Below are positions 113-54,638 of a stretch of 55,148 nucleotides of DNA, piece after piece. The notes under the pieces are model-generated. The model saw only the letters and a program-made list of their open reading frames with translations, was not told the origin of the DNA and searched no databases. The DNA is from an uncultured Lachnoclostridium sp. (GTDB lineage Bacteria > Bacillota > Clostridia > Lachnospirales > Lachnospiraceae). The translations under genes and the position numbers were made by a program. The stretch spans positions 1-55,148 of the forward strand of contig CAMKRZ010000021.1 in the NCBI GenBank assembly GCA_946415315.1, given 5' to 3'. The stretch's first letter is position 1. Each line of letters opens with the position of its first letter.

Positions 113-727
113 ATGGGATGGGGCATAGCCTTCTTTGTGAACAGCGTGTTGCTGGGGATCGGACTTGCGATGGACGCATTTTCCGTATCACTGGCGAATG
201 GTTTGCGGGAACCGTCAATGCGCCGTCGGAAAATGGCAGGAATCGCCGGTGTCTTTGCCGGATTCCAAGCAGCCATGCCATTGATCGGGTGGATCTGCGT
301 TCGCACGATCGCGCAGAAGTTTCACGTCTTTGAGAAGTTTATCCCCTGGATCGCGTTGGCCCTTCTGGGTTTCATCGGCGTCAGCATGCTCCTTGGCGGA
401 ATACGCGGGGAGAAGGATGACAAGGACAGTGCGGAGCCGGATAACATTTCGGAAACAGTACGGAAAACCGGTCTTTGGGCGCTCCTTGTACAGGGTGTGG
501 CCACGTCCATCGATGCGCTCTCCGTCGGCTTTACCATCGCGGACTACGGTTTGGTGCAGGCTGTTGTGTGCGCGTTGATCATAGCGGTGCTGACATTTGC
601 CATATGCATAGCCGGGCTGTTGCTCGGGCGGAGGATCGGCACGAGGATCGGCGGTAAGGCAGAGATACTCGGCGGAATGATACTGATCGCCATCGGGCTC
701 GAGATTTTCATCACCCACGTTTTCTGA
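113..727 (+). CDS. mntP: Putative manganese efflux pump MntP
   Basis: A 204-residue polytopic membrane protein of the MntP (DUF204) family, known to export Mn(II) and so limit manganese toxicity. The family's two internally repeated motifs are visible: AMDAFSVSLANG near residue 19, with Asp21 inside the first membrane helix, and SIDALSVGFT near residue 130. These acidic residues are thought to bind metal. A charged loop, roughly residues 98-115, separates the two halves. The start follows GGAGG at 101-105 with 7 intervening bases. It is a single gene between tRNA clusters. No Mn riboswitch-like structure is seen in front of it, because a tRNA terminator fills that space; its promoter is not obvious. 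Confidence 0.9.
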   Translation: MGWGIAFFVNSVLLGIGLAMDAFSVSLANGLREPSMRRRKMAGIAGVFAGFQAAMPLIGWICVRTIAQKFHVFEKFIPWIALALLGFIGVSMLLGGIRGEKDDKDSAEPDNISETVRKTGLWALLVQGVATSIDALSVGFTIADYGLVQAVVCALIIAVLTFAICIAGLLLGRRIGTRIGGKAEILGGMILIAIGLEIFITHVF

Positions 728-818
728 AGAAAACGAAACTTTGCGGACGCTTTTTCCGTTCGTAAGGGTTGTTTTCGTAAAATGTGCGTCTTCTCTTCGG
801 AAACGTGTGATTTTACTA

Positions 819-847
819 TTGACGAGGACGCGATTTTCTATTATAAT
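819..847 (+). promoter_or_regulatory. Sigma-A promoter of the Glu-Thr-Met-Asp-Leu tRNA cluster
   Basis: TTGACG at 819-824 and TATAAT at 842-847 are separated by 17 bases. The first tRNA begins 14 bases downstream. Confidence 0.9.
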
Positions 848-860
848 CATCAAGTGTTGC

Positions 861-932
861 GGCTCCATGGTCAAGCGGTTAAGACACCGCCCTTTCACGG
901 CGGTAACAGGGGTCCGAATCCCCTTGGAGTCA
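861..932 (+). tRNA. tRNA-Glu (TTC)
   Basis: A complete cloverleaf: acceptor GGCTCCA with TGGAGTC, anticodon loop CTTTCAC inside a CCGCC/GGCGG stem, and a GGTCCGAATCC T arm. The discriminator is A and no CCA is encoded. First gene of a five-tRNA transcript. Confidence 0.95.
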
Positions 933-950
933 TTGTACGAAAGTACGCGT

Positions 951-1023
951 GCCGATGTGGCTCAATTGGCAGAGCAGCTGACTTGTAATCAGCAGGTTAT
1001 CGGTTCAAGTCCGATCATCGGCT
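951..1023 (+). tRNA. tRNA-Thr (TGT)
   Basis: Acceptor GCCGATG pairs with CATCGGC, and the anticodon loop CTTGTAA sits in a CTGA/TCAG-type stem. The discriminator is T. No CCA is encoded. Confidence 0.95.
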
Positions 1024-1051
1024 TATCGGCACACGGATTGCCGAAATGTGC

Positions 1052-1125
1052 GGACCATTAGCTCAGTTGGTTAGAGCAGTCGGCTCATAACCGATCGGTC
1101 CTGGGTTCGAGTCCCCGATGGTCCA
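1052..1125 (+). tRNA. tRNA-Met (CAT), probably elongator
   Basis: Acceptor GGACCAT pairs with ATGGTCC; the anticodon loop is CTCATAA. The first acceptor pair G1-C72 excludes an initiator tRNA. A tRNA-Ile2 whose C34 is modified to lysidine would also read CAT in DNA and is not excluded. No CCA is encoded. Confidence 0.9.
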
Positions 1126-1553: not shown

Positions 1554-2780
1554 ATGTCGGAAGTAGTAGATCGTTTTTTAACATATGTGGGATTTGACAC
1601 GCAGTCCTCGGAGACGTCGGAGGAGTCACCGACTACCGCGAAGCAGCATGCGCTCGCAAAGCAGCTTGCGGAGGAGTTGCGGCAGATGGGAGCGTCCGAC
1701 GTGCGGTACGATGATACGCATTGCTATGTCTATGCGAAGATCCCTGCGACGGACGGCGGCGCGCAGACGAAGACGCTTGGCTTTCTGGCGCACATGGACA
1801 CGTCGCCGGAAGTGAGCGACACCGATGTGAAGGCGCGCATCGTGGCGTACGAAGGCGGTGACATCGTGCTGAACGAGGACGGGCCGATCGCTCTTAAGGA
1901 GAAGGATTTTCCGGAGCTTGCGAACTATGTCGGCAAATCGCTGATCGTGACGGACGGCACGACGCTTCTCGGCGCCGATGACAAGGCCGGCGTGGCGGAG
2001 ATCATGACGATGGCGAGCTATCTTCTGAAGCATCCGGAGATCGCGCACGGACCGATCGCGGTAGCGTTTACTCCGGACGAGGAAGTCGGAGCAGGCGTCG
2101 ATTACATCGATCTGGAGGCATTTGGCGCGGACTACGCATACACGGTGGACGGCGGACGGCTCGGCGAGCTGGAGTATGAGTGCTTCAACGCGGCAGCCGC
2201 GACGATCACGATCATGGGCCGCAGCGTGCACCCGGGAACCGCGAAAGGGAAAATGATCAATGCCATCCGTGTGGCGATGGAGCTCGATTCCATGATCCCG
2301 GCGACGGAACGGCCGGAGACGACGGAGAAATACGAAGGCTTCTTCCACGCGACGAGGATCGCGGGAGAGACGGAGGGGGCGGTGATCTCATACATCATCC
2401 GTGACCACGACCGTGCGGCATTTGAGGAGAAGAAGGAACGTCTGACGGGCCTTGTGGCAGCGATCAACGAGAAATACGGCGCGGAGATCGCAAGTCTGAC
2501 GATGAAGGATCAGTACTATAACATGCGTGAGGTGATCGAGCAGGGCAATCAGTTCCTGGTCGATGATGCGATCACCGCGATGAAATCGCTCGGGATCACA
2601 CCGATCGTTCAGCCGATCCGCGGCGGCACGGACGGTTCGCGGCTCTCGTACATGGGCGTTCCGTGTCCGAACCTCTGCACCGGCGGAGAGAATTTCCACT
2701 CGCGCTATGAGTATGCGTGCGTGGAGTCGATGGAGCAGATCGTACAGCTGCTGATCACGCTGGCGGTTGGAGTGCGCTAG
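1554..2780 (+). CDS. pepT: Peptidase T (tripeptide aminopeptidase)
   Basis: A 408-residue M20B metallopeptidase that removes the N-terminal residue of tripeptides in the cytoplasm, the last stage of peptide use. The di-zinc site is readable: H80-M-D82, the bridging Asp142 in LLGADDKAG, catalytic Glu176 and metal-binding Glu177 in TPDEEVG, Asp199 in TVDGG, and the late His of ENFHSRYE. The RGGTDGSRLS segment of the family is also present. The length is normal for PepT. The ATG follows AGGAGG with about 9 bases. The next gene begins 16 bases after the stop, so the two are probably cotranscribed. Confidence 0.96.
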   Translation: MSEVVDRFLTYVGFDTQSSETSEESPTTAKQHALAKQLAEELRQMGASDVRYDDTHCYVYAKIPATDGGAQTKTLGFLAHMDTSPEVSDTDVKARIVAYEGGDIVLNEDGPIALKEKDFPELANYVGKSLIVTDGTTLLGADDKAGVAEIMTMASYLLKHPEIAHGPIAVAFTPDEEVGAGVDYIDLEAFGADYAYTVDGGRLGELEYECFNAAAATITIMGRSVHPGTAKGKMINAIRVAMELDSMIPATERPETTEKYEGFFHATRIAGETEGAVISYIIRDHDRAAFEEKKERLTGLVAAINEKYGAEIASLTMKDQYYNMREVIEQGNQFLVDDAITAMKSLGITPIVQPIRGGTDGSRLSYMGVPCPNLCTGGENFHSRYEYACVESMEQIVQLLITLAVGVR

Positions 2781-2796: not shown

Positions 2797-3213
2797 ATGG
2801 TTTGTACAATCGTGAAGGATGCAATGTTTCTGGCAATGAAGTCGGAGCCGGCGAAGGATTGCCCGGAGGACCGGAAGACAGTGAAGGATCTGTGTGACAC
2901 GCTGAAGGCGCACGGCGGCGTCTGCGTCGGCATGGCAGCCAACATGATCGGAGTGCGCAAGCAGATCATTGCGGTTACGATGGGGTTCTTTCAGGTACCG
3001 ATGATCAATCCGGTGATCGTTGCCAGGGAGGATCCGTATGAGACGGAGGAGGGATGCCTTTCGCTGACCGGAGTTCGACCGACGAAACGGTATCGGAAGA
3101 TTACGGTGGAGTATCTGGATGCGGAGTTTCGGCCGCACAGGGATACATTTTCCGACAGAACCGCACAGATCATACAGCACGAGTACGATCACACGAGGGG
3201 GATTGTTATCTGA
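2797..3213 (+). CDS. Peptide deformylase-like protein with a changed first motif
   Basis: A 138-residue protein of the peptide deformylase fold. The second and third motifs are intact: EGCLS (residues 85-89, metal-binding Cys87) and HEYDH (128-132, with both His ligands and catalytic Glu129). The first motif, normally GxGxAAxQ, reads CVGMAANM at 43-50, so the glutamine that helps form the oxyanion hole is replaced by Met50. Short deformylase paralogues with this AANMIG form occur in Clostridia and enterococci. Activity on formyl-Met proteins is therefore uncertain. I chose the ATG at 2797, preceded by GGGAGG, over an in-frame TTG at 2767 that overlaps pepT. Confidence 0.85.
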   Translation: MVCTIVKDAMFLAMKSEPAKDCPEDRKTVKDLCDTLKAHGGVCVGMAANMIGVRKQIIAVTMGFFQVPMINPVIVAREDPYETEEGCLSLTGVRPTKRYRKITVEYLDAEFRPHRDTFSDRTAQIIQHEYDHTRGIVI

Positions 3214-5135: not shown

Positions 5136-5279
5136 TCGTTGTCAGCGCGGTCGCAAGAGGGCATATACTGCTCAGCGGAGATGGCGGTCTGAGAATCATG
5201 CAGGGAAAATGATGTAGCGGAGATGGTGTCGAAAGCGTCTTTGCGCGAGAGTGCAGCAGGGTTACGGAGAGTATTGAAA

Positions 5280-6455: not shown

Positions 6456-7068
6456 TGAGAGAGAGCGGATCGTATTTGCCACCGGCAACGCTCACAAAAT
6501 GGTTGAGATCCGCGCAATCCTCGGTGACCGCTACGATGTCGTCTCCATGAAGGAGGCGGGGATTTCAGCGGATATCGTGGAGGATGGGGCGACATTTGAA
6601 GCCAACGCGCTGATCAAGGCGCGCGCAGTCAGCAGGATCGCGGGCTGCATGGCGATGGCTGACGACTCCGGGCTGGAGGTGGATTACCTCGGCGGAATGC
6701 CGGGAATTTACTCGGCGCGTTTCCTGGGCGAAAACACAAGTTACGATATCAAGAACCGGGTGATCATCGACATGGTCGCGAAGGCAAAGCCGGAGGAGCG
6801 CACCGCGCGCTTTGTGTGTGCGATCGCCTGCGCATGGCCGGACGGCCGGTCGGAGGTCGTGAGGGGTACGTTCGAGGGAGAGATCGCGAAGGCGCCGGCA
6901 GGACCGAACGGCTTCGGGTATGATCCCATTTTCCTTGTGCCGGAACTCGGCAAAACGAGCGCGGAGATCGCGCCGGAAGAGAAGAATGCGATCAGCCACC
7001 GCGGAAACGCGCTGCGGCTGATGCGCGCGAGATTGGAGCAGATTCATGAAAATCCTGGTAATCAGTGA
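6448..7068 (+). CDS. rdgB: dITP/XTP pyrophosphatase (RdgB/HAM1)
   Basis: A 206-residue house-cleaning enzyme that hydrolyses dITP, ITP and XTP to monophosphates, keeping deaminated purines out of DNA and RNA. Family motifs are present: FATGNAHKMVEI at 10-21, MADDSGLEVDYLGGMPGIYSAR with the metal-binding acidic residues, GPNGFGYDPIF, and KNAISHRGNAL near the end. Its first 8 bases overlap the methyltransferase gene and its last 23 overlap the phosphodiesterase gene, so the three form one tight operon. A GGAGG lies just before the ATG, inside the upstream gene. Confidence 0.95.
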   Translation: MSDERERIVFATGNAHKMVEIRAILGDRYDVVSMKEAGISADIVEDGATFEANALIKARAVSRIAGCMAMADDSGLEVDYLGGMPGIYSARFLGENTSYDIKNRVIIDMVAKAKPEERTARFVCAIACAWPDGRSEVVRGTFEGEIAKAPAGPNGFGYDPIFLVPELGKTSAEIAPEEKNAISHRGNALRLMRARLEQIHENPGNQ

Positions 7069-9218: not shown

Positions 9219-9240
9219 GGAAAATGTTCCTGCATTTTCC
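9219..9240 (+). repeat. Inverted pair of the dispersed GGAAAATG octamer
   Basis: GGAAAATG at 9219-9226 and its exact reverse complement at 9233-9240 are separated by 6 bases, making an 8-bp hairpin between tRNA-His and tRNA-Gln. There is no T tract after it. It is the only place in the window where two copies of the over-represented octamer face each other. Confidence 0.85.
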
Positions 9241-9450: not shown

Positions 9451-9529
9451 ATGCCATGGAATGTAATTCGTATTTACATTTTCCGCACGAAAACCGTGTG
9501 GGCAAATAAAGATAAAGGAGAAAAAGAGT

Positions 9530-13517: not shown

Positions 13518-14888
13518 ATGGCGGGAAAGAAGATTGATTATTCGGCAATTACAAAAGAGATCACAGCGTATTCCGAACTGTGCGAGAATAACAGCAATAT
13601 CGATCCTGCGCTGTACGAGCGCTATGACGTGAAGAGGGGACTTCGCGATCTAAACGGAAAGGGCGTGCTGACTGGACTTACGGAGATTTCGGAAATCCGC
13701 GCGACGGAGACCGTGGACGGGGAGAGCGTTCCCTGCCGAGGGTCTTTATTTTACAGAGGGTATAACGTGGAGGAACTGATCGGCGGCGCGAGAGCCGACG
13801 GACGATTCGGCTTCGAGGAGGTCGTGTACCTGTTATTGTTCGGCGAGCTTCCGAACCGCAGGGAACTCGATGAATTCTGCAAGGTCCTTGCAAAGTACCG
13901 TTCGCTTCCGTCGTCCTTCGTGCGCGACGTCATCATGAAGAAGCCGAGCTCGGACATGATGAACATGCTGTCGAAATGCGTCCTGACGCTGTATTCCTAC
14001 GACACGAACGCGGACGATACGTCGCTCCCGAACGTGTTGCGGCAGTGCCTGCAGCTGATCTCCATGTTCCCTATGATCTCGGTTTACGGCTACATGGCGT
14101 ATCAGTACTACAACAAGACAGGCGACCTGGTGATCCACAAGCCGAAGGCGAATCTTTCGATGGCGGAAAATATCCTCCACATGCTGCGTACGGACAGTAA
14201 GTACACGGAGCTGGAGGCGAAGGTTCTGGACGCGGCGCTCATTTTGCACGCGGAGCACGGCGGCGGCAACAACTCGACATTTACCACACATGTGGTCACC
14301 TCGTCCGGCACGGACACGTACTCGGCAGTGGCTGCGGCGCTCGGCTCGCTGAAGGGACCGAAGCACGGCGGCGCCAACCGTAAGGTCGTGCAGATGTTTG
14401 CCGACATGAAGGAGAAGGTGAACGACTGGACGGACGACAAGGAAGTCAGCGCATACCTGAAGGCGCTGCTTCACAAGGAAGCGTTTGACGGAGCGGGATT
14501 GATCTACGGCATCGGACACGCGATCTATTCAGTCTCCGATCCGCGCGCGGTGCTGTTCCGCACGTTCGTGGAGAAGCTTTCTGTGGAGAAGGGGAGAGAG
14601 GAAGAGTTCGCCTTGTATGCGAAGGTTGAGGAGCTTGCGCCGAAAATCATTGCCGAGGAGCGGAAAATGTACAAGGGCGTCAGTGCCAACGTGGATTTCT
14701 TCAGCGGCTTTGCCTACGACATGCTGAATCTGCCGCAGGATCTGTACACGCCGATCTTTGCGATTGCGCGAATCGCCGGCTGGAGCGCGCATCGCATGGA
14801 GGAGCTGATCAACACGAGCAAGATCATCCGCCCGGCGTACAAGAGCGTGTCGGCGGAGCGCGAGTACGTGCCGATGAGCGCGCGGTGA
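13518..14888 (+). CDS. gltA: Citrate synthase
   Basis: A 456-residue cytosolic enzyme that condenses acetyl-CoA and oxaloacetate to citrate. Active-site motifs are readable: LHAEHGGGNNS (His244, His247), GPKHGGAN (His283), GIGHAIYSVSDPR (His334, with DPR for substrate binding) and NVDFFSG (Asp393). The first 40 residues are an N-terminal extension common in clostridial forms. The ATG follows GGAGGAGG. There are no aconitase or isocitrate dehydrogenase genes beside it, so it stands alone in this window; it probably serves glutamate synthesis through an incomplete TCA route, which is inference. Confidence 0.95.
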   Translation: MAGKKIDYSAITKEITAYSELCENNSNIDPALYERYDVKRGLRDLNGKGVLTGLTEISEIRATETVDGESVPCRGSLFYRGYNVEELIGGARADGRFGFEEVVYLLLFGELPNRRELDEFCKVLAKYRSLPSSFVRDVIMKKPSSDMMNMLSKCVLTLYSYDTNADDTSLPNVLRQCLQLISMFPMISVYGYMAYQYYNKTGDLVIHKPKANLSMAENILHMLRTDSKYTELEAKVLDAALILHAEHGGGNNSTFTTHVVTSSGTDTYSAVAAALGSLKGPKHGGANRKVVQMFADMKEKVNDWTDDKEVSAYLKALLHKEAFDGAGLIYGIGHAIYSVSDPRAVLFRTFVEKLSVEKGREEEFALYAKVEELAPKIIAEERKMYKGVSANVDFFSGFAYDMLNLPQDLYTPIFAIARIAGWSAHRMEELINTSKIIRPAYKSVSAEREYVPMSAR

Positions 14889-15076: not shown

Positions 15077-16132
15077 ATGGATAGCAACAGCCTGATCAGC
15101 GTTATCATTCCTGTATATAACGTGAAGCCGTATCTGGCGGAGGCGCTGGACAGCGTTCTGGAACAGACATACAGGAATCTTGAGATCATAGTCGTGGAAA
15201 ACGGTTCCGATGATGGTTCGGAGAAAATGTGTGATGACTACGGAAACAGGGATCCGCGTGTAAAAGTAATTCATCTGAGCAGCCGGGGATTGAGCCGAGC
15301 GAGAAACACCGGGCTCGATGCCGTAACCGGAGAGGCGGTTGCGTTTCTCGATTCGGATGACGCATATTATCCGGAGTACATCAGCGAGATGGTACAGGCG
15401 ATGGTACGCACAAACGCGGATATAGTTATCTGTAAATCCAGGACGTACCACACGGACGGGAAAATGCTGGTGTCAACGCAAAAGCACGAGCCTTTGTACT
15501 TAAAGCCCGGCGTTTATACGAGAGAGGAAGCGCTCAATGCATTACTACTCGACGGTGAGATACGGCATGGGGTATGGAATAAACTGTATAAGAGGGAACT
15601 ATGGGAGACTGTCCGTTTTCCGGAGGGAAGAGTGTACGAGGATGTGGCAACCACTTACCGCATTCTCGATAAATGCAACTCGGTCTGCCATTTGGACCTG
15701 GCGCTGTACAAGTACAGAAGGCGAAACGGGAGCATTACGTTCAGCAGTTCGTGGCAGTACTATGAAGACTTGCTGGAGGCGCACGCCGGCATAGAAGCGT
15801 ACATTCTATCGAATGTACCGGAACTGTTCAGTGAAAGCCGGCTGATCAAATGGCGACGCTCGTATATCTCGGTTTTGATATCATTTTACGTCAAATGGTC
15901 GAGAAAAAAAGGGAAAACTGACAAAGCCCGATGCGAGAAGATCCGACGGAATATTATCGAAACCGGAAAAAAATACGGTGTGAAGGGAATCGGTTTTCGC
16001 ACCCGGACAGCGTACTATATGTTGCGCTTCTGTCCGTGGTTATTCCACGTTGTCTATCCGTTATACAGGGCAGTCGTCTCAGTGAAAAAACGGATAATGA
16101 AAAAGCAGGCCGGAAAAAAGATTCCTGAATAA
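15077..16132 (+). CDS. Family 2 glycosyltransferase
   Basis: A 351-residue GT-A fold glycosyltransferase. Residues 5-110 hold the nucleotide-sugar domain: SVIIPVYNVKPYL, ENGSDDGS and the metal-binding DSDD (92-95). Later GVWNKLYKRE and YEDVATTY are typical of GT2 enzymes that build surface polysaccharide or teichoic acid side chains. The C-terminus (about 240-351) is basic and hydrophobic and may sit on the membrane. The ATG follows GGAGG. There is no polysaccharide cluster around it, so donor and acceptor cannot be told. Slightly richer in A and T than neighbours. Confidence 0.88.
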   Translation: MDSNSLISVIIPVYNVKPYLAEALDSVLEQTYRNLEIIVVENGSDDGSEKMCDDYGNRDPRVKVIHLSSRGLSRARNTGLDAVTGEAVAFLDSDDAYYPEYISEMVQAMVRTNADIVICKSRTYHTDGKMLVSTQKHEPLYLKPGVYTREEALNALLLDGEIRHGVWNKLYKRELWETVRFPEGRVYEDVATTYRILDKCNSVCHLDLALYKYRRRNGSITFSSSWQYYEDLLEAHAGIEAYILSNVPELFSESRLIKWRRSYISVLISFYVKWSRKKGKTDKARCEKIRRNIIETGKKYGVKGIGFRTRTAYYMLRFCPWLFHVVYPLYRAVVSVKKRIMKKQAGKKIPE

Positions 16133-16474: not shown

Positions 16475-16524
16475 ACTCGGGGTGTTGCCTCATTTTCCGA
16501 AGAATTACAGATTGTCTGAAAATG

Positions 16525-18138: not shown

Positions 18139-18167
18139 AGAATACCGTATTCGACGGAAAATGACAA
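18139..18167 (-). promoter_or_regulatory. Promoter of abfA
   Basis: On the minus strand TTGTCA, 17 bases, then TATTCT, about 90 bases before the start. The space 18051-18430 between abfA and the DJ-1 gene holds only the two divergent promoters, the abfA leader repeats and two GGAAAATG octamers (18156 and 18274). Confidence 0.65.
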
Positions 18168-18301
18168 TTGATTTTTCATCATTTTTCGCGTCGGAGCATG
18201 GGTTATTTTGGCTTTTGCAAGGCGCGGAAATGACAGCTTATCCGACGCCGTCGAAAAGTTGCGAAAATGTGTCGGAAAATGTGGAAAAACGCTATGTTCG
18301 G

Positions 18302-19155: not shown

Positions 19156-22100
19156 ATGGAAGATAACAGAGGAACGGGGAGAACGGATCAGGAGAGAATA
19201 CGGGAACTGGAGCAGGAGCTGGAGCAGCAGAAGGCCAAGTACCGCATCATCAGCGGTATGGTGCAGTGCGGCCTGTGGGAGTACGGCCTTTCGACGGGAG
19301 AGCTCGTGCAGAGCCGTCGTGTCGAGGGGATGGCGCCGAGCGATCGCCTGCGCATCCCGGATTTCCGGCATACGATGAGCGAGAGCGGGCTGATCGCGAA
19401 GGAGGACATGGAGGTGTTCTCCGCGCTGTGCGACAGCATGGAGCACGGTGACGAGGCATTTTCCTATGATCTGCGCGCGTATGTCGACGAGAAGACGCGC
19501 ATCTGGCTCCGCTACGAGGGCTACACGGTTTACGCCGACAACGGCGCGCCGGTGAAGGTGATCGGGCGCACGCTCAACGTGAGCGACGAGAAGGAAGAGG
19601 AAAATGTCGTCATCCGGGAGTCGGAGACCGATCCCGTGACAGGACTTTATACGCAGATGTCCCTGCAGGAGGTGCTGGAGGACATCATCCGCACGAGCGG
19701 GGAGAAGGAGCGGTTTGCGCTGTTCGTGCTGGACATCGATGATTTTACGTCGATCACGGGCGAGTGGGGACACGCGTACGGCGATTACGTGCTGGAGAAA
19801 CTGGCGAAGGGCATGCTGTCCGTGTTCATGGACAGCGATGCGATGGCGAGGATCGAGGACGATCTGTTCGTCATGATCAAGACCGGCGTCAAGGGACCGG
19901 CCGATGTGTATTCCGTGGCGCGCGCGGTCGCGAAGGCGGCGGAGCGGATTGACCTGAAGAAGGGCAATACGCTCAAGGTGAGCATGGGCGTGTCGATCTT
20001 CCCGCTGGACGGACGCGATTACACGAGTCTGTACCGCAAGGCCGTCATAGCGATGGAGGAGACGAAGAAGAATCCGGCGTCCGTGTGCACGATGTACGAG
20101 GAGGCGCTGAGCATTCACCAGCAGTACCGCCCGAAGAGAGAGGCGGCGCCGCAGCCGCAGCGGACGGAGGCGCAGAAGGTTGTTGCCGCGCAGCAGAGTT
20201 CGAAGTACGGCCCTGTCGAGAAATACATCGTCAACAAGACGTTCGATATGCTTGCCGGCAGCGGCACGGGAGCCGAGGAGGTCGTGCAGATCTTCGAGGA
20301 GATCGGCAAGTATTACAAGTACCGCCGCATCTACACGATCCAGTACGATGTTCGCAAGCAGCTTGCCAAAGTGCGCTACGACTGGGAGTCGGAGAAAAAC
20401 CCGTTCTACCCACAGTTCGATCGCGCCGTTAGGGAGAACTATGACTCCATCCGCGCGCGGTTTGCCAACGATCGTCTGTTCCTGTCTCTGAACACGGCGC
20501 AGCTCGGGATCGTGATGCCGGAGGAGATCCGGAGCCTGTATGGCAATTCCTCGCTGTTCCAGTATGTGATCATCGACAACGACGAGACATTTGCCTGCAT
20601 CTGCTTCGAGAAGGAGGCGGACCGCAGCTGGAGCAAGGAGGAGCAGGACGTCCTGATCAACCTCTCCAAACTTCTTGCCATCTACATCGAGCGGGCGCGC
20701 ACGAAGGAGATGCTCGCCGATGAACTGAAATATACGCACGCCATCATCGAGAACCAGCAGATCACCAGCTACGCGGTGATCCCGGAGACGATGGAGCTGG
20801 TGTACGTCGGCGATTATACCGGACGCCAGTATCCGCTCGCGCATTCCGGCGAGCACTGCTACTCGGCGATCATGGGACGCAGCTCGATCTGCCAGAACTG
20901 TCCGGTTGCCGCTCTCGGTGAGCGAGACAAGGTGCACACGACCGAGACGTACTACACGAAGCAGAAGCGCTGGATCAGCACGACAGCGTCGCGCGTGACC
21001 GGCGAGGACGGCGAGAAACAGTGCCTTGTGTGCTGGTCTGACGTCACGGAGTTCGTGGAGCGCGTGCGCTCGAAGGATGCGCTCACGGGACAGCTTACAG
21101 CCGAGAAATTCGAGTCGGATGCGATCCGCTACATCTCGGAGCATCCCCGCGCAAGCCGTTGCATGGCGTACTTCAGCTTCCCGCAGTTCCACGATCTGAA
21201 CGAGGTTTGGGGCTACCAGGTCTGCAATGAGCTGCTTCGCGTTTTCGCGACGACGGTTTCCGCCATGCTTCGGACGGACGAACTTCTTGCTCGTATCAGC
21301 GGCGCGGACTTCGTCATGATGATGGACTACGAGGATCGCGAGCGCACGCAGGCGCGTGTCGAGATGATCCTGCAGAGCGCGCACACCTCGGTGCTCCGTC
21401 TGTACCCCGATCTGCAGCTCAACGTGTGGTGCGGTCTGTATCGCTTCCAGAACAAGGAGGATACGGTGCCTGCAGCGGTCGAGAAGGCCAACCGCGCGCG
21501 CAAGGCGATCGGCAGCATGAACAGCATCGCGACGATCGCGGTCAACTACGAGGCGGGCGATACGGAGCAGAAGAACAGTTTCCGCGCATTTGTCGAGAAC
21601 TCGATGCGCGACGCTCTCACGAACCGCGAGTTCAAGGTGTTCTTCCAGCCGAAGCGCGATCCCGCGACGGACAAGGTCATCGGAGCGGAGGCGCTGGTGC
21701 GCTGGATTACCTCCGAGGGACAGGTGCTCGAGCCCGGCTCGTTCATGCCGATCTTCGAGGAGAACGGCTTCGTAACGGAGCTGGATTACTACGTGCACAA
21801 GGAGACGTTCCGCCTCGTCCGCGAGTGGCTGGAGAACGGTGTCAATCCGCCGGTCATTTCGCTCGGAAGTTCGTGGCAGTACATGTTCAGCGCGGACTTT
21901 GTGAACCGTATCAACTTCCTTCTGCAGCGCTACAACGTGCCGGCTGACCGGATCGAGCTGGTGATCCCGGACGGCATGAGCGAGGCAAACATGAATTCCG
22001 TCATGGAGGTTCTGACGGAGCTGCAGGGCATCGGGTTCGTCGTGGATATCGACAGCTATCTCGCAAAATGCTCACTGCAGTCGCGCAAGAGCGAGCTGCC

Positions 22101-23804: not shown

Positions 23805-24386
23805 ATGAGTTTGGTACCGTATGTCATTGAACAGTCCAGCAGGGGTGAGCGTTCGTATGATATCTATTCGCGTCTTTTGAAGGACCGCATCATTTTCCTC
23901 GGGGAGGAAGTCAATGAGGTGACGGCAAGCCTTGTCGTCGCGCAGCTTCTCTTCCTGGAGTCGGAAGATCCGAGCAAGGATATCTGCCTCTACATCAACA
24001 GCCCCGGCGGTTCGGTTACCGCAGGCCTCGCGATCTATGACACGATGCGCTACATCAAGTGCGATGTCTCGACGATCTGCATCGGCATGGCGGCCAGCAT
24101 GGGAGCATTCCTTCTGGCAGGCGGCACGAAGGGCAAGAGATATGCGCTTCCCAACGCGGAGATCATGATCCATCAGCCTCTCGGCGGGGTGCAGGGTCAG
24201 GCCACGGAGATCGAGATTGCGGCCAAACACATTTTGCAGACGAAAGAGAAGCTCAACCGCATGCTTGCCGAGAACTGCGACAAGCCGTTTGAGACGGTTG
24301 CGGCGGACACTGACCGTGACAACTGGATGACGGCGGAGGAAGCGAAAGATTACGGCCTGATCGATAAGGTCATTGTCAGCCGATAA
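23805..24386 (+). CDS. clpP: ATP-dependent Clp protease proteolytic subunit
   Basis: A 193-residue serine peptidase that assembles as a double heptamer. The catalytic triad is visible with Ser98 in GMAASMG, His123 in MIHQPLGG and a late Asp near residue 172. The N-terminal [25 protein letters not shown] is standard for ClpP. I start at the ATG at 23805 after AAGAGAGGG; a TTG at 23787 overlaps that site. clpX follows 12 bases after the stop, so the peptidase and its unfoldase are made together. Confidence 0.98.
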
Positions 24387-30274: not shown

Positions 30275-30334
30275 TTCTAAATCCTCCATATGATTATTCG
30301 GAAAATGTGCGCGGCTATACGCGCCTACAAAGGC

Positions 30335-33672: not shown

Positions 33673-33734
33673 CTCGGAAAATGCAGGCTTTTCCGGGGTT
33701 TCGCAAATATTTTGAAAAATCTGAAAATTTCTTC

Positions 33735-36910: not shown

Positions 36911-37186
36911 ATGGCACGTTCTTTGAAGAAGGGACCTTTCGCAGACCAGTATCTGCTTGACAAGGTCAACGACATGAATGAGAAGGGCGACAAGAGCGTC
37001 ATCAAGACGTGGTCCCGCCGCTCCACCATTTTCCCTGCCTTCGTAGGTCACACGATCGCCGTATATGACGGCAAGAAGCATGTTCCGGTATATGTGACTG
37101 AGGATATGGTTGGCCACAAGCTCGGCGAGTTCGTTGCGACGAGAAACTTCCGTGGACATGGCAAGGACGAGAAGAAGTCCAGGTAA
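36911..37186 (+). CDS. rpsS: Ribosomal protein S19
   Basis: A 91-residue 30S head protein that contacts the A-site finger of 23S r[21 protein letters not shown] and [36 protein letters not shown] are diagnostic. The ATG follows TAGGAGG, part of which overlaps the rplB stop. Confidence 0.98.
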
Positions 37187-40015: not shown

Positions 40016-40555
40016 TTGACTAGATTAAAAGAAACTTATTTGAACGAGATCGCGGGAGCGATGCAGAAGAAGTTCGGTTACAAGAACGTGATGCAGATCC
40101 CGAAGCTCGATAAGATTGTGATCAACATGGGCGTGGGCGAGGCGAAGGAAAATGCCAAGGCTCTTGAGTCTGCCTGCAAGGATATGGAGATCATTGCCGG
40201 TCAGAAGCCCGTTATTACGAAGGCAAAGAAGTCCGTCGCGAACTTCAAGATCCGCGAGGGTGTTTCCATCGGCTGCAAGGTTACGCTCCGCGGCGACAAG
40301 ATGTATGAGTTTGCGGATCGTCTGATCAATCTTGCTCTGCCCCGCGTGCGTGACTTCCACGGTGTAAACCCGAATGCATTCGACGGCCGCGGCAACTACG
40401 CCGTAGGTATCAAGGAGCAGTTGATCTTTCCGGAGATCGAGTATGACAAGGTGGACAAGGTCCGCGGTATGGATGTCATTTTCGTAACGACGGCGAAGAC
40501 CGATGAGGAAGCTCGCGAGCTGCTGAGACTGTTCGGCATGCCGTTTGCCAAGTAA
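40016..40555 (+). CDS. rplE: Ribosomal protein L5
   Basis: A 179-residue 50S protein that binds 5S rRNA and contacts P-site t[49 protein letters not shown] and [25 protein letters not shown] are diagnostic. The start is a TTG at 40016, 9 bases after GGAGG. It matches the usual N-terminus (T-R-L-K-E-x-Y), and no ATG lies near enough to serve. Confidence 0.96.
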
Positions 40556-44662: not shown

Positions 44663-44674
44663 TGAATAATTAAC

Positions 44675-44724: not shown

Positions 44725-45366
44725 ATGAAGTTAGTTATGCTTGGTGCGCCGGGTGCCGGTAAGGGCACGCAGGCGAAAATGATTGCCGCAAAATACGGCA
44801 TTCCGCACATCTCCACGGGCGACATTTTCCGTGCTAATATCAAGAACGGCACGGAGCTCGGCGAGAAGGCAAAGAAGTACATGGACCAGGGACTTCTGGT
44901 TCCGGACGAGCTGACGCTCGCGCTGATCATGGATCGTTTCGCGCAGGATGACTGCAAGAACGGTTACGTGCTCGACGGTTTTCCGCGCACGATCGCGCAG
45001 GCTGAGGCACTGACGGCAAGCCTGAAGGAGAACGGCGAGGCGCTTGACATGGCAATCGACGTCGATGTTCCGGATGAGAACATCATCGAGCGCATGGGCG
45101 GACGCAGAGCCTGCGTATCCTGCGGCGGCACATATCATGTGCTGTACAATCCGCCGAAGGTGTCGGGAATCTGTGATCTGTGCGGCGGAGAGTTGAGCAT
45201 CCGTAAGGATGACCTGCCGGAGACCGTGAAGCGCCGCCTTACGGTGTACCACGAGCAGACGCAGCCGTTGATCGATTACTACACGGCGGAGGGGATCCTT
45301 CGCTCGGTCGACGGAACCAAAGATGTCAATGAAGTATTTGCAGCGATCACGGAGCTGCTTGCATAA
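44725..45366 (+). CDS. adk: Adenylate kinase
   Basis: A 213-residue enzyme that converts ATP and AMP into two ADP. The P-loop GAPGAGKGT (7-15), the AMP site [14 protein letters not shown] and DGFPRT (84-89) are present. The LID domain carries a complete zinc site: Cys130, Cys133, Cys150 and Cys153, as in many Gram-positive forms. The ATG follows AGGGAGG. The secY-adk-map order is widely conserved in bacteria. Confidence 0.98.
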
Positions 45367-46318: not shown

Positions 46319-46322
46319 ATCC

Positions 46323-46736: not shown

Positions 46737-46862
46737 CATCCTGAGGGCCGAAAAAAGCGTGCCGGGAGAGCGAAAATGACGGGTCGGATCCGCCGTGGGA
46801 GCATCATTTTCCGGGAATGTGAAAAAAACTTTGAAAACCGCGAAAAATCGTGAAAAAACAGG

Positions 46863-50463: not shown

Positions 50464-50550
50464 CGTGTATGATAACATCGGCAGCGCGACTTCATTTTCC
50501 GCACTGTCGGAGATTGTATTCCGGTCGGAATGACATGTCTGGAGGTTATC

Positions 50551-52371
50551 GTGGAACCTGTGAGGATCACCGGCCTGGTTCACGACTATGTGACCCGGGA
50601 TGAGGAGGGCAACAACACCGAGACGAAGCGGGCGCTCGACCACGTGGAACTGAACGTGGAAGAGGGTCAGTTTATTGCTGTCCTCGGAGCGAACGGCTCC
50701 GGCAAATCCACGCTCGCCAAGCACATCAATGCGCTTCTCCTCCCGACGCAGGGAAGGGTGCTCACGTGTGACATGGACACGGCGGACGACAGGTATCTCT
50801 GGGAGATCCGCAAGAGCGCCGGCATGGTGTTCCAGAATCCGGACAACCAGATCGTCGCCACGGTCGTGGAGGAAGATGTCGGTTTCGGTCCGGAAAATCT
50901 CGGCATTCCGACGGAGGAGATCGTTCAGCGTGTTACGGACAGTCTTGCAGCGGTCGGTATGACAAAATACGGGGAGAGTTCGCCAAACCGCCTCTCCGGA
51001 GGACAGAAACAGCGAGTGGCGATCGCGGGGATTCTTGCGATGGAGCCGAAGTGCATCCTGATGGACGAACCGACTGCGATGCTGGATCCGATCGGACGAC
51101 GTGAAGTGCTGGAGACCGTGCACCGCCTGAACCGCGAGAAGGGGATCACGGTCATTCTGATCACGCATTACATGGAGGAAGTCATTGACGCCGACCGGAT
51201 TTTCGTGATGGATGCCGGCAGGATCGCGATGCAGGGGACGCCGCGAGAGGTGTTCACCCGTATCGGGGATTTGCAGGAGCTGCGTCTCGAGGTGCCGCAG
51301 GTGACGGAACTTGCGCACCTGCTGTCGGAGAGGGGAATTCCCATGCCGCCTTCGGTACTCACTCCGGAGGAGTTTGTCACGGCATATAAAGAGGTAGCGG
51401 GCAATACTGAAGCGACGGCGCGCACGAATGTCGTCGGTCTTTTGGAAAATGAGCCCCCCAAGGCTGTAGGAAGACCGAACGCAGATGTGTCGGCAGCAGG
51501 ATCGCCGGACACTGAAGCGGAAGCGCCGGTTTTGTCCATGCGTGATGTACGGTTTGTCTACGGCGTCGGCACAGCGTTTGAGACGGTCGCTTTAGAGGAT
51601 GTGAATCTGGACATTTTCCAGGGAGAATACATCGGACTGATCGGGCATACCGGGTCAGGCAAATCCACGTTGATCCAACTGCTGAACGGTCTGGAGCGGG
51701 CGACTGCGGGAACGGTACGGTACCTGGGGGAGGACATTTTCGGAGAAGGGTTCAACCGCAGGCAGCTTCGCAGCAACGTCGGATTGGTATTCCAGTATCC
51801 GGATCACCAGCTGTTTGAGGCGACTGTGATCGGAGATGTGAGTTTCGGCCCGAAGAATCAGGGCCTTTCCGCTGAGGAAATCCGTGAGCGCGCAGAATGG
51901 GCGCTTACGCTGACAGGCGTTTCGCAAGATCGCTGGCAGTCGTCGCCTCTCGAGCTTTCGGGCGGACAGAAGAGGCGTGTTGCGATCGCCGGCGTGCTGG
52001 CGATGAAGCCGAAGGTGATCATTCTCGACGAGCCGACGGCGGGACTTGACCCGGCAGGGCGCGACGAGATCCTCGGGGAGATCGACCGGATCCGGAGAGA
52101 GACCGGTATGACAGTTATCTTGGTTTCACATCGAATGGAGGACGTGGCACGGTTTGCCGACCGGCTGGTTGTGATCAGCGACGGGCGCATCGTGTTTGCG
52201 GATCCGCCTCGTGATGTATTCCATCATCGTGAGAAACTGACGTCTATCGGACTCGAGGTGCCTCAGGTTACGCAGGTGATGCAGATGCTCTCAGCGGAGG
52301 GAATCCCGTGTCGTGAGGACGCGATAACCGTGGAAGAGGCGCTGGACGGATTCGGAGTCGCAGGGGCTTGA
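50551..52371 (+). CDS. ecfA: Fused ECF transporter ATPases EcfA1-EcfA2
   Basis: A 606-residue single chain holding both ATPases of the energy-coupling-factor vitamin/metal transporter. The first half (1-280) has Walker A GANGSGKS (46-53), Q loop FQNPDNQ, signature LSGGQ (148-152) and MDEPT. A linker of about 45 residues (285-328, rich in Ala, Thr, Pro and acidic residues) leads to the second half (329-606) with GHTGSGKS (365-372), FQYPDHQ, LSGGQ (469-473) and LDEPT. Each half is of full CbiO length. In most Firmicutes ecfA1 and ecfA2 are separate genes. I prefer the GTG at 50551, 5 bases after GGAGG, over the ATG at 50530, which would include that site. Confidence 0.93.
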   Translation: MEPVRITGLVHDYVTRDEEGNNTETKRALDHVELNVEEGQFIAVLGANGSGKSTLAKHINALLLPTQGRVLTCDMDTADDRYLWEIRKSAGMVFQNPDNQIVATVVEEDVGFGPENLGIPTEEIVQRVTDSLAAVGMTKYGESSPNRLSGGQKQRVAIAGILAMEPKCILMDEPTAMLDPIGRREVLETVHRLNREKGITVILITHYMEEVIDADRIFVMDAGRIAMQGTPREVFTRIGDLQELRLEVPQVTELAHLLSERGIPMPPSVLTPEEFVTAYKEVAGNTEATARTNVVGLLENEPPKAVGRPNADVSAAGSPDTEAEAPVLSMRDVRFVYGVGTAFETVALEDVNLDIFQGEYIGLIGHTGSGKSTLIQLLNGLERATAGTVRYLGEDIFGEGFNRRQLRSNVGLVFQYPDHQLFEATVIGDVSFGPKNQGLSAEEIRERAEWALTLTGVSQDRWQSSPLELSGGQKRRVAIAGVLAMKPKVIILDEPTAGLDPAGRDEILGEIDRIRRETGMTVILVSHRMEDVARFADRLVVISDGRIVFADPPRDVFHHREKLTSIGLEVPQVTQVMQMLSAEGIPCREDAITVEEALDGFGVAGA

Positions 52372-52481
52372 TAAGGCGGGCTTGATGAGACGGACTTGTA
52401 AGGCAGGGGAAGAACCGAAAAACCTGTGAACATAACGAAAAATCCCGGTTGCCAACGGCACCCGGGGAAAGGAGAAACGGA

Positions 52482-53288
52482 ATGCTTCGAGACATTACGA
52501 TCGGGCAATATTACCCGGCGAAATCCTGTATCCACCGGCTGGATCCGCGCACGAAGATCGTCGGAACACTGCTGTACATCGTCAGCTTGTTTCTGTTCCG
52601 GTCATTTTCGGGCTTTCTTGTCGTGGGCACGGCATTTGCCGGAGTATTGATTCTGTCCCGCGTTCCGTTTCGATACATGCTGCGGGGTCTGCGCCCGATC
52701 CTGATGCTGTTGCTGGTCACGGTGCTGTGCAATTTCTTCCTGACAAGCGGTGAGGTGCTGTGGCAGTGGAAGTTTCTGAAGATCACACGCGAGGGACTGG
52801 AGCGCGGCGCGTTCATGGGCGTCCGACTGATCCTGCTGATCTTCGGCACATCGATGATGACTTACACGACCACGCCGAATCAGCTGACGGACGGGCTGGA
52901 AAAACTGCTTTCCCCGCTTCGGGTGATCCATTTTCCAGCACATGAGATTGCGATGATGATGTCGATCGCGCTGCGGTTCATCCCGATCCTCACGGAGGAG
53001 GCGGAGCGCATCCGCAAGGCGCAGATGGCGCGCGGTGCGGACATGGAGAGCGGTGGTCCGATCAAACGCGCGAAGGCGATGATGCCGGTGTTTATCCCGC
53101 TGCTCGTGTCGGCGTTCCGGCGCGCGTTCGACCTCGCGATGGCGATGGAGGCGCGCTGCTACCACGGCGGCGAGGGGCGTACGAAAATGAGGCCCCTGCG
53201 GTACCGTTCCGCGGATCTGATCGGGTATATCTATCTGGCATGTTACATGGCGACGATCATCTCGCTTCGGATCTGGATGAAGATCTGA
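52482..53288 (+). CDS. ecfT: ECF transporter transmembrane subunit EcfT
   Basis: A 268-residue membrane protein that couples the ATPases to exchangeable substrate-binding S components. About 5-6 membrane helices are seen. The two coupling-helix signatures are ARG at 183-185 (QMARGADMESGG) and ARC at 224-226 (AMEARCYHGGEGRTKM); the second has Cys where many have Gly. I start at the ATG at 52482 after AAAGGAG. It follows the fused ATPase gene by 110 bases, and the ecfA-ecfT-truA order next to rplQ is conserved in Firmicutes. No S component is encoded nearby. Confidence 0.95.
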   Translation: MLRDITIGQYYPAKSCIHRLDPRTKIVGTLLYIVSLFLFRSFSGFLVVGTAFAGVLILSRVPFRYMLRGLRPILMLLLVTVLCNFFLTSGEVLWQWKFLKITREGLERGAFMGVRLILLIFGTSMMTYTTTPNQLTDGLEKLLSPLRVIHFPAHEIAMMMSIALRFIPILTEEAERIRKAQMARGADMESGGPIKRAKAMMPVFIPLLVSAFRRAFDLAMAMEARCYHGGEGRTKMRPLRYRSADLIGYIYLACYMATIISLRIWMKI

Positions 53289-53339
53289 CCCCGGAAAATG
53301 AACGAGTTCGGGCGGCATGCATCATAAGAGGAGCAAATC

Positions 53340-54077
53340 ATGCGACGTATCGTATTGACAATCGCATATGACGGAACCGCGTACAGCGGGTGGCAGGCAC
53401 AGGCCAATGCGGTGACGGTCGAGGGGACGCTCCGCGAGGCGATCCGCAGGCTGAGCGGCGAGGACGTTGTGACGATCGGCGCGAGCCGCACGGACGCGGG
53501 CGTACACGCATTAGGGAATGTGGTTGCCTTTGACACGGAATCGCCGATCCCGGCGGAAAACTGGAGACCGGCGCTCAATTCCTTCCTTCCGCAGGATATA
53601 CGCGTGATGAACTCGTGTGAGGCTGCGGCGGACTTCCACCCGCGGTTCGATGCGCACAGCAAGCGCTATGAGTACCGTATTGCCATGGGTCCGGTCGTGA
53701 ACCCGCTGCGGTGTCGCTATGTCTGTGGCGTGCACGAGGAACTTGACCTCGCGGCAATGCAGAAGGGGGCCGAGGCATTCGTCGGCGAGCACGATTTTTC
53801 CTCGTTCTGCAGCGCGGGTACGCAGACGGAGAGCAAGGTGCGCAACGTGACAAAGTGCGAGGTTTACCGCGATGGCGGGGAGATCGTGATCGGTGTTGAG
53901 GGCGGCGGTTTTCTGTACAATATGATCCGCATTCTGGCCGGAACGCTGATCGATATGGGGCGCGGCGCGAAGTCACCGGAGTCCATGGGAAGGATACTGG
54001 AATCCCGCGACCGCACGCAGGCCGGACCGACGGCACCGCCGGAAGGGTTGATATTGATAAAAATCTCGTATAAATAA
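53340..54077 (+). CDS. truA: tRNA pseudouridine synthase A
   Basis: A 245-residue enzyme that makes pseudouridine at positions 38-40 of tRNA anticodon arms. The catalytic Asp52 lies in GASRTDAGVHALG; YDGTAYSGWQ at the N-terminus, FHPRFDAHSKRYEYRI and GGGFLYNMIRILAGTLIDMGRG are typical. The ATG follows AAGAGGAG. It lies 51 bases after ecfT. Confidence 0.97.
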   Translation: MRRIVLTIAYDGTAYSGWQAQANAVTVEGTLREAIRRLSGEDVVTIGASRTDAGVHALGNVVAFDTESPIPAENWRPALNSFLPQDIRVMNSCEAAADFHPRFDAHSKRYEYRIAMGPVVNPLRCRYVCGVHEELDLAAMQKGAEAFVGEHDFSSFCSAGTQTESKVRNVTKCEVYRDGGEIVIGVEGGGFLYNMIRILAGTLIDMGRGAKSPESMGRILESRDRTQAGPTAPPEGLILIKISYK

Positions 54078-54130
54078 GCGAAATATCAAAATGAAAATGA
54101 CATTTTTCATGCTATAGAAAGAAAAAGTGA

Positions 54131-54159
54131 TTGACAGTCGGTAGGCCGGTGTGTATAAT
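54131..54159 (+). promoter_or_regulatory. Consensus promoter of rplM-rpsI
   Basis: A full consensus: TTGACA at 54131-54136, 17 bases, TATAAT at 54154-54159. The leader of about 45 bases is too short to hold the known L13 leader of other Firmicutes. Confidence 0.95.
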
Positions 54160-54212
54160 GCAGAAAGTGACGCGAAAAAGCGGAAACGAGAAAACAAGGA
54201 GGTAGAAATCCT

Positions 54213-54638
54213 ATGAAGAGCTACATGGCAACTGCAAACGTAGAGAGAAAATGGTACGTTGTTGATGCAGAGGGTCAGACATTGGGTCGTCTTGCTTCCC
54301 AGATCGCAATGGTTTTGCGTGGAAAGAACAAGCCGATCTTTACAACACATATCGATACCGGTGACTATGTCATCGTGATCAATGCGGAGAAGATTAAGGT
54401 TACCGGCAAGAAGCTGGATCAGAAGGTTTATTTCAGCCACTCCGATTATCCGGGCGGTGTTCGCGAGACGACGCTTCGCGAGATGCTTGCGAAGAAGCCG
54501 GAAAATGTTATCACCTTCGCGGTGAAGGGCATGCTTCCGAAGGGACCTCTCGGCCGTGAGATGCTTGACAAGCTGCATGTATATGCAGGAGCTGAGCATC
54601 CGCACGCGGCTCAGAAGCCGGAAGTACTGACGTTTTAA
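54213..54638 (+). CDS. rplM: Ribosomal protein L13
   Basis: A 141-residue 50S protein that acts early in assembly. [31 protein letters not shown] and [36 protein letters not shown] are diagnostic. The ATG follows AAGGAGG. First gene of a two-gene operon with its own strong promoter. Confidence 0.98.

Follow-up and report, generated by a model that had tools for sequence, protein, structure and literature searches.

Is the short, non-palindromic word that recurs throughout this stretch of a Lachnospiraceae genome a by-product of composition, or is it read by some protein, and if so, for what? The window, the whole stretch of 55,148 nucleotides that was analyzed, contains 32 copies of the octamer GGAAAATG by direct count (17 on the plus strand and 15 on the minus strand), which agrees with the at least 31 copies (17 plus, 14 minus) of the preliminary description; no other octamer of the window is as frequent when complements are counted in. 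Independent bases predict 1.4 copies, in keeping with the more than twenty-fold excess over about 1.3 that had been claimed. Markov models of orders 1 to 3 predict 2.0 to 3.6 copies, and 100 dinucleotide shuffles of the window yielded a mean of 2.08 and a maximum of 6 against the 32 observed. Models of orders 4, 5 and 6, trained on the same 55 kb on which they were tested, predict 9.6, 16.8 and 29.7 copies and are weak nulls, since the motif's own inflated 5- to 7-mers carry it into the models. The fifth-order check proposed earlier, when confined to the window, accordingly retains the excess only at two-fold (32 vs 16.8). The previously noted preference for a leading G is evident: the core GAAAATG is preceded by G in 32 cases, compared with A in 4, C in 9 and T in 8. 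The over-representation of GGAAAATG is thus confirmed.

The base immediately 5' of GGAAAATG is preferentially C (17 of the 32 window copies, and 57% in a 455-kb sample of the genome). As CGGAAAATG, the motif is located on the plus strand at 228..235, 9219..9226 (between tRNA genes), 14662..14669 (within the citrate synthase gene), 18156..18163, 18274..18281, 24992..24999, 30300..30307, 33676..33683 (upstream of the S10 leader), 53293..53300 and 54500..54507, and on the minus strand at 177..184, 3146..3153, 9477..9484, 16491..16498, 44823..44830 (downstream of secY), 46805..46812 and 50493..50500. As GGGAAAATG, it occurs at 2248..2255 (plus, within the peptidase T gene), 5204..5211 (plus), 15459..15466 (plus) and 37027..37034 (minus). 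The form AGGAAAATG is found at 6927..6934 (minus), 19457..19464 (minus) and 19599..19606 (plus), the latter two within a GGDEF/EAL gene, and at 23891..23898 (minus), 30912..30919 (plus), 31504..31511 (minus) and 40147..40154 (plus). The form TGGAAAATG is found at 9233..9240 (minus), at 51444..51451 (plus) and 51612..51619 (minus) within a fused ECF ATPase gene, and at 52929..52936 (minus). The copies at 9219 and 9233 constitute an inverted pair, with no T run following the second. Only 6 of the 32 copies (those starting at 177, 5204, 9477, 18156, 30300 and 53293) fall outside the called ORFs of at least 60 aa, and the earlier figure of at least 12 intergenic copies was not recovered. Some ORFs of this length are themselves doubtful, such as ORF 8862-9311, which runs antisense to tRNA genes. 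The ribosomal-protein stretch at 33700-46500 contains 3 sites, consistent with the lower density previously described for the ribosomal operons.

The enrichment extends across the home genome (G000), a 2.93-Mb draft of 42 contigs whose SecY relatives place it in the Lachnospiraceae, in which GGAAAATG occurs 890 and 873 times on the two strands, 1,763 in total, compared with 18 and 17 copies (35) of the reversed word. This 50-fold ratio contrasts with two- to four-fold values typical of most of 200 family genomes, the reversed word being a lenient control that GGAAAATG exceeds in most of them. The best-enriched word is the nonamer CGGAAAATG, with 1,019 copies in 2.93 Mb. In a 475-kb sample, 294 copies of GGAAAATG were counted against 37.9 expected under an order-3 Markov model. 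Within coding sequence, 40 synonymous shuffles left 36.5 copies (sd 5.1, maximum 46) of the 245 observed, and a second run left 37.6 (sd 5.0); most coding copies therefore vanish on synonymous shuffling, which bears out the earlier view that codon bias is insufficient. The excess is independent of codon or amino-acid use.

These 245 coding copies are nearly balanced in orientation (118 along the gene, 127 opposite to it), and an origin in start codons or Shine-Dalgarno sequences was rejected based on balanced gene strands in G000, G073, G089 and G154. With leading and lagging strands assigned in 43 blocks (425 kb) of clear GC skew, 148 copies are leading and 118 lagging (56% leading), compared with 73% for other octamers of matching composition (3,673 copies). 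Both strands carry copies in all 21 home-genome stretches, with the greatest imbalance in L090 (8/2), L089 (7/2), L097 (13/5) and L105 (11/4); a one-stranded polarity of contig 1 beyond about 60 kb was ruled out by the 7 plus and 7 minus copies in L096 (C1:260-280 kb). Motif density is 1.02 per kb outside and 0.59 per kb inside ORFs of at least 100 aa in the 455-kb sample, where 51 of 289 sites are outside such ORFs. Gaps between neighbouring copies follow random spacing; terminator hairpins were rejected on this ground and for the scarcity of close pairs. The AAAT core is mostly intolerant of change, whereas the edges of the motif are tolerant, and the flanks show little conservation past one base on either side. 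Since they hold so little information, the motif is not part of a longer element, and a longer dispersed repeat was rejected.

Among relatives, enrichment is strongest in one clade of the home genus, to which G205, G209 and G211 belong, with G213 and G218 in a low clade; the 195 other genomes of the class reach at most 152 copies. Pairwise comparisons with relatives gave 7/7, 8/6, 8/6, 13/7, 7/11, 4/3 and 1/3 sites found only in G000 and only in the relative, respectively, showing that sites are gained and lost between species at constant density. Conservation of the sites (0.46) is not significantly higher than that of octamers of the same composition (0.415; p = 0.24). Individual octamers can be retained: those at 23891..23898 and 24992..24999 are kept in 10 of 10 aligned congeners, and that at 30912..30919 in 8 of 8. 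In each of 5 congener comparisons, made without a significance test, the flanks of the window sites show lower identity than background.

A GG..AATG core is common to the words of the home genus (g1) and of three other genera, represented by G089, G073 and G154. The G073 word is GGNCAATG (GGNNAATG 4,755 vs 648 reversed), that of G089 is GGRNAATG-like (5,201 vs 1,151 reversed), and that of G154 is GGGCAATG (GGNNAATG 1,932 vs 370 reversed); ratios of GGNNAATG to its reverse overstate enrichment, because they are also high in G126, G062 and G067, whose sequence samples yielded nothing. G139 was rejected as a firm dialect, as its gene strands are split 50 to 23 and its related words may be driven by gene strand. 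When SecY loci were scanned for GGNNAATG (65 of 80, those of at least 8 kb), even the highest scores beyond the genus were weak, with z of 4.7 in L018, 3.5 in L023 and 3.2 in L022. The genera bearing these words are far apart by SecY. The words in other genera resemble dialects of an uptake sequence, and we regard them as putative dialects.

Based on these properties, we propose, with a probability of roughly 0.52, that CGGAAAATG and its core GGAAAATG serve as a genome-wide DNA uptake signal comparable to the Haemophilus USS or the Neisseria DUS. Of the uptake-like, methylation and nucleoid-protein sites suggested in the preliminary description, an uptake signal is the best supported. What we infer is uptake itself, together with its sequence bias, the protein that reads the word and the resulting drive. 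A sequence-reading component of the DNA-uptake machine would prefer DNA bearing the word, the most likely candidate being a minor pilin of the genome's own type IV pilus. Better-matching fragments would be taken up and recombined more often, and the word would build up on either strand, within and between genes, until gain equals mutational loss. Consistent with this model are a short non-palindromic word in 1,763 copies, far above background, enrichment without a codon cause, a strand bias that is almost nil, random spacing, an AAAT core with tolerant edges, turnover between species, confinement to one clade, and the related words of other genera. The lower density in ORFs and the lower flank conservation recall the USS, and pilus and ComEC genes are present in the home genome. 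The slight leading-strand excess (148 to 118) counts against it, as does the lack of significantly better conservation at the sites. Like the present word, USS and DUS lack strong replication-strand polarity.

Comparison with the established signals reveals both likenesses and differences. The accessible parts of the sources describe the USS as a 9-bp, non-palindromic, chromosome-wide word with a short essential core and dialects (PMC5031613, PMC12616744, PMC7811141), sparser in constrained coding DNA (PMC7811141). The word described here shares with the Pasteurellaceae USS, as portrayed there, its 9-bp non-palindromic form, many copies, sparseness in constrained coding DNA, short core and, putatively, dialects; it differs in its unrelated sequence, its monoderm host and the lack of any AT-rich extension found beside it. 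In USS and DUS, one orientation is commoner in reading frames, and Pasteurellaceae show a gene-end bias, according to the available text of PMC2346458. Inverted pairs that act as terminators are a further trait of USS and DUS. Unlike these signals, the present word shows no preferred reading-frame orientation (118 with vs 127 against the gene), nor are its inverted pairs in excess (12 neighbours lie within 50 bp vs 8.9 expected), and a gene-end bias is not proven (25 and 29 of 217 sites in the outer deciles; KS p = 0.44). The DUS occurs in hundreds to thousands of copies, with dialects that share an inner core within one family, as far as the accessible text of PMC5031613, PMC3630211 and PMC12616744 goes. 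Copy number here lies in that range and several putative dialects likewise share an inner core, whereas the sequence is unrelated, the length is 9 rather than about 12 bp, and the genera with the putative dialects are widely separated by SecY. The DUS reader in Neisseria is ComP; here a minor pilin is the candidate. Among Firmicutes, Veillonella parvula is transformed much better by genomic DNA than by a PCR product carrying the same mutation; in the available portion of that report, the authors found no word of at least 10 bp with at least 100 copies, left 9-mers open and named no uptake sequence (PMC5397411). It resembles the home organism in belonging to the Firmicutes and differs in that no uptake word was named there.

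The home genome encodes a type IV pilus operon with a retraction ATPase in stretch L206, where a scan of ten proteins recognized PilB, PilT, PilC, a prepilin peptidase, a PilM-like protein and four prepilins. The putative prepilins, at L206 10856-11422, 11571-12017, 15723-16538 and 18755-19264, were recognized by their N-terminal motif alone. Across the genus, pilC is present in 17 of 22 genomes, including 13 of 13 near-complete ones (G000 among them). ComEC was found in all 22 chosen genomes, G000 included, and is uninformative as evidence because it occurs in every genome tested; of 200 family genomes, 197 have PF00482. Possession of pilus genes does not suffice for the motif: in 40- to 80-kb samples, nine pilus-bearing genomes (G055, G047, G099, G127, G116, G149, G213, G218 and G212) showed no such prominent word. 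The motif may also occur without them: G154 (87% complete), a possible exception, has the word, but the only matches found there were a single ATPase of the shorter, Tad-like type and weak ones to PF00482. Pilus scores and motif counts, compared by eye and in samples, showed no clear link, and pilus presence is therefore not used as strong evidence.

The strongest competitor to an uptake signal is a site bound by a nucleoid-associated, segregation or DNA-modifying protein and selected for abundance rather than transfer, which we consider unlikely though deserving of serious attention. A non-palindromic and nearly non-polar word with degenerate edges, whose copies are randomly spaced and turn over while their density stays constant, fits such a site; clade-restricted dialects would suit a changing protein, and no connection to pilus genes is required. 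The same pattern could result from any abundant DNA-binding protein that is similarly tolerant. Against it, we know of no nucleoid protein that selects so specific a 9-mer at some 1,000 positions and has related words across genera, and methylation targets are usually not enriched.

A Chi site of an AddAB/RecBCD-type recombinase is improbable. Chi of E. coli (GCTGGTGG) is likewise an abundant non-palindromic octamer, the present word differs between lineages, and the slight leading excess (148 to 118) would fit. Examined with the same script over 300 kb, and as a narrow yardstick of one Chi in one species, the E. coli octamer is far less enriched (2.0-fold over order 3 and 2.9-fold over synonymous shuffles, vs 7.8-fold and 6.5-fold here). 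It is also polar, with 61 leading and 20 lagging copies, 63 with and 18 against the gene, and 81 of 81 in ORFs; the corresponding values for the present motif are 148/118, 118/127 and 245 of 294, which do not show a leading-strand and coding-strand bias of the E. coli Chi type.

Far less probable still is a polar octamer that orients replication or segregation (KOPS, SRS or AIMS), with which the motif shares abundance and an eight-base length. AIMS are by definition biased to the leading strand, increasingly so near the terminus, according to the accessible text of PMC5993296. The motif instead occupies both strands in 21 of 21 stretches, is 56% leading (in a 42-contig draft whose terminus is not placed) and shows weaker polarity than octamers of matching composition (73%); this weak polarity upholds the earlier judgement that Chi and KOPS are unlikely. 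Finally, a by-product of composition, of the choice of codons or amino acids, or of dispersed repeats, for which one could cite the window-trained Markov models (16.8 copies at order 5, 29.7 at order 6), the uneven coding phases (counts of 9 to 73, the commonest being G-GAA-AAT-G, Glu-Asn) and a milder excess over the reversed word common in the family, is largely contradicted by shuffles that keep protein and codon use yet leave 36.5 of 245 copies, by the scant conserved flank, which excludes a longer repeat, and by the lack of GGAAAATG enrichment in E. coli (19 vs 16.1), and is hardly credible.

We know of no DNA uptake tag in a Gram-positive bacterium. Within the titles and opening lines of abstracts in the open-licence literature, no report of such a word in Lachnospiraceae or Clostridia was found, and none of the literature matches listed for the string GGAAAATG concerned such a signal. 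In 2020, strong preference for DNA with a short motif was recorded, among the bacteria tested, in species of two families, Pasteurellaceae and Neisseriaceae, according to the available part of PMC7811141. With slightly less confidence than is placed in the signal itself, we tentatively suggest that a DNA uptake signal, the first from a Gram-positive lineage, exists in rumen Lachnospiraceae in at least three dialects with a GG..AATG core. If true, the word would be the first known uptake tag in a Gram-positive bacterium and a third, monoderm case, implying that the trait evolves repeatedly and that self-recognition by a DNA word arose also outside Pasteurellaceae and Neisseriaceae. It would provide a fresh test system for the molecular-drive model, and tagging DNA with CGGAAAATG could make a group of gut bacteria easier to transform. 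Natural transformation would, furthermore, stand out as an active force among gut Firmicutes.

The octamer GGAAAATG, for which the preliminary description had claimed a marked excess from at least 31 copies, occurs 32 times in the window (plus strand 17, minus strand 15), and the claim withstands 100 dinucleotide shuffles of the same DNA, which yield a mean of 2.08 and a maximum of 6. Against Markov backgrounds the excess is large at orders 0 to 3, where 1.4 to 3.6 copies are expected, and shrinks at orders 5 and 6, where the expectation rises to 16.8 and 29.7 because these models, trained on the window itself, include the motif's own parts. The window corresponds to contig 21 of a draft genome of 2.93 Mb in 42 contigs (G000), in which GGAAAATG was counted 890 + 873 times, against 18 + 17 for its reversed word (the same letters backwards). 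Detailed counts cover 16% of this genome, and all assemblies are drafts. The top words of a 455-kb sample were GGAAAATG (289 observed, 36.9 expected at order 3), CGGAAAAT (291 against 50.8) and the nine-base form CGGAAAATG (164 against 15.2). In the window and the sampled home-genome stretches L089-L108, many next-ranked octamers hold GATC (GATCATCG, GGAGATCG, CGCGATCG), perhaps reflecting codon use or a Dam-type site.

Single changes within the inner AAAT mostly fall to or below the order-2 expectation, the exceptions being C at its first (15 against 6.2) and third position (13 against 8.8), whereas variants at bases 1-4 or at the last base all still exceed it. Outside the nine bases, only a faint upstream preference for T and a downstream shortage of G were found. 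The word is therefore a short site with degenerate edges rather than a piece of some longer repeat. As a separate observation on the assembly, the sequence at C2:1-55 of G000 has identical copies (100% over 53 to 55 bases) on five further contigs: three begin with it (C22:1-55, C7:1-55, C13:1-54), C4 ends with it (C4:221333-221385), and in C20 it lies at or near an end (C20:57556-57609); it is a repeat where the assembly breaks.

Copies are sparser inside open reading frames (ORFs, called by length alone) of at least 100 aa (0.59 per kb, 238 sites) than outside (1.02 per kb, 51 sites). Gaps between neighbours match an exponential law (CV 0.95), and close pairs are few: 12 lie within 50 bp, where 8.9 would be expected. 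All three reading phases on both strands are occupied, unevenly (9 to 73 copies). Synonymous-codon shuffling, which leaves all proteins and the codon use of each gene intact, reduced the 245 coding copies to 36.5 (sd 5.1, maximum 46, 40 shuffles), in agreement with the earlier statement that codon bias alone cannot explain the word. Pasteurellaceae uptake sequences are biased to gene ends, and in the uptake signal sequence (USS) of that family and the DNA uptake sequence (DUS) of Neisseriaceae one orientation is commoner in reading frames (PMC2346458); for GGAAAATG, a gene-end bias did not reach significance (KS p = 0.44), and neither orientation is preferred, 118 copies lying with the gene and 127 against it. 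One window copy lies about 100 bases upstream of an S10-Clostridia ribosomal leader RNA (33781-33862, 90.8 bits), which precedes the ribosomal-protein operon.

By replication strand, assigned from GC skew, 148 copies are leading and 118 lagging, a slight leading-strand excess (p ~ 0.07; 43 blocks, 425 kb with clear skew). Same-composition octamers are 73% leading (2,668 to 1,005), and the purine-rich GGAAAATG is therefore less polar than its composition predicts. Escherichia coli Chi, analysed with the identical script in 300 kb of strain K-12, served as yardstick: it is polar (61 leading, 20 lagging; 63 against 18 by gene strand), enriched 2.0-fold over order 3 and 2.9-fold over synonymous shuffles, and lies in ORFs in 81 of 81 cases, in contrast to GGAAAATG, which is enriched 7.8-fold and 6.5-fold, with 49 of 294 copies outside ORFs. 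In the E. coli sample GGAAAATG itself was not enriched (19 against 16.1 expected). The strand evenness advanced earlier against Chi or KOPS is thus borne out; GGAAAATG behaves neither like Chi nor like AIMS, which are polar octamers (PMC5993296), and a Chi site is an improbable explanation.

SecY relatives at 82 to 86% identity come from three Lachnospiraceae assemblies, two of them labelled water-buffalo rumen or reticulum. Comparison with related genomes, which the preliminary description had proposed, places CGGAAAATG in all 22 genomes of the genus, the home genome included (63 to 1,060 copies; reversed word, 1 to 34). Ten carry 728 to 1,060 copies (G000, G189, G201, G205, G207, G208, G209, G211, G214, G216), and G215 was grouped with them although it has 453; low-count genomes still exceed the reversed word (G212, 212 to 17; G213, 73 to 15; G218, 63 to 23). 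Across the family (200 genomes), GGAAAATG outnumbers its reversed word by a factor of 50 in G000, 28 in G189, 20 in G089, 19 in G073, 8.7 in G139 and less in the rest; in a further 195 genomes of the class, the CGGAAAATG count peaks at 152 (G248; reversed, 17). For gap-free aligned octamers of the one window, paired with G000, the fraction of motif sites common to both partners was 0.41 to 0.75 (controls, 0.37 to 0.56), and site conservation did not differ significantly from same-composition octamers (0.46 against 0.415, p = 0.24). In a plain comparison of identities, surroundings of window sites were conserved below the window average in five of five congeners (in G189, 0.761 against 0.809). 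Sites private to G000 or to the relative are nearly equal (7/7, 8/6, 8/6, 13/7, 7/11, 4/3, 1/3), so individual sites appear and vanish while density stays; what is maintained thus seems to be the word wherever it lies, not particular positions.

Related words with a GG..AATG core, read from small DNA samples, are enriched in three other genera: GGGCAATG, GGTCAATG, GGCCAATG and GGACAATG in G073, GGAAAATG, GGGAAATG and others in G089, and GGGCAATG in G154. Whole-genome counts of GGNNAATG against the reversed pattern are 4,755 to 648, 5,201 to 1,151 and 1,932 to 370, respectively, and gene-strand splits of the related words are 72/96, 85/78 and 35/31. These words resemble the uptake-sequence dialects of Neisseriaceae and Pasteurellaceae, which have a common inner core (PMC12616744, PMC3630211), but span a wider tree, so they may have arisen independently. 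By SecY, which matched in 14 of 16 genomes (not in G126 or G089, the latter hence outside this placement), G073 and G154 both lie far from G000 (identity 0.50 and 0.51) and far from one another (0.45). Samples of G154 (L188, L189, L190) are also enriched in CGGCATTG/CAATGCCG (21 against 2.3) and in GGCATTGC (16 against 1.6), the latter a distinct word and no mere complement. In G139 (L121-L124), the strongly enriched GGCTACCA/TGGTAGCC, with 13 of 19 copies outside ORFs, looks like an intergenic repeat.

Contig 5 of the home genome carries a type IV pilus operon with a retraction ATPase (L206, 6757-19264), a single run encoding PilB, PilT, PilC, two prepilins, a prepilin peptidase, a PilM-like protein, a protein at PilO's place and further prepilins; the 20-kb stretch around it has the lowest motif density among 22 home-genome stretches sampled (5 copies). 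Within the genus, 17 of 22 genomes have PilC, including 13 of 13 near-complete ones; among the 11 high-CGGAAAATG genomes it was detected in 8 (self, or 85 to 92% identical) but not in G207, G208 and G216; ComEC was present in all 22 chosen genomes. A long PilB-type and a second, PilT-length ATPase occur in G189, G073, G089, G139, G055 and G047. Only shorter matches, interpreted as Tad-like from score and length, were obtained in G154, G111, G126, G062, G067 and G144, although G111, with a strong PilC-type match (2.0e-27), is placed here only tentatively. No such word appeared in 60-kb samples of seven genomes (G126, G062, G067, G035, G191, G185, G144) judged to lack the pilus from weak or no PF00482 matches, with PF00437 checked in four of the seven. 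Nine pilus bearers likewise showed none in 40 to 80 kb samples (G055, G047, G099, G127, G116, G149, G213, G218, G212), and G154 has the word without this pilus being found in its 87% complete assembly; a link between word and pilus is therefore just plausible. For Streptococcus pneumoniae, also a monoderm, a contribution of tip-located minor pilins to DNA binding is reported (PMC12040237).

A binding or modification role apart from uptake is the main rival explanation, though less likely than uptake. Biased uptake plus recombination would yield an abundant, non-palindromic, hardly polar, codon-independent and randomly spaced word, sparser in coding DNA, with tolerant edges and a strict core, turning over at constant density and forming clade-bound dialects. 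A study on the Firmicute Veillonella looked for such words and named none (PMC5397411); for the USS, molecular drive through a biased uptake machine may be enough (PMC7811141). As the combined pattern of abundance, low polarity, codon independence, turnover and dialects is the expected outcome of such a process, the word in these Lachnospiraceae may well be a DNA uptake signal produced by biased uptake and recombination, a reading to which we assign a probability of about 0.52.
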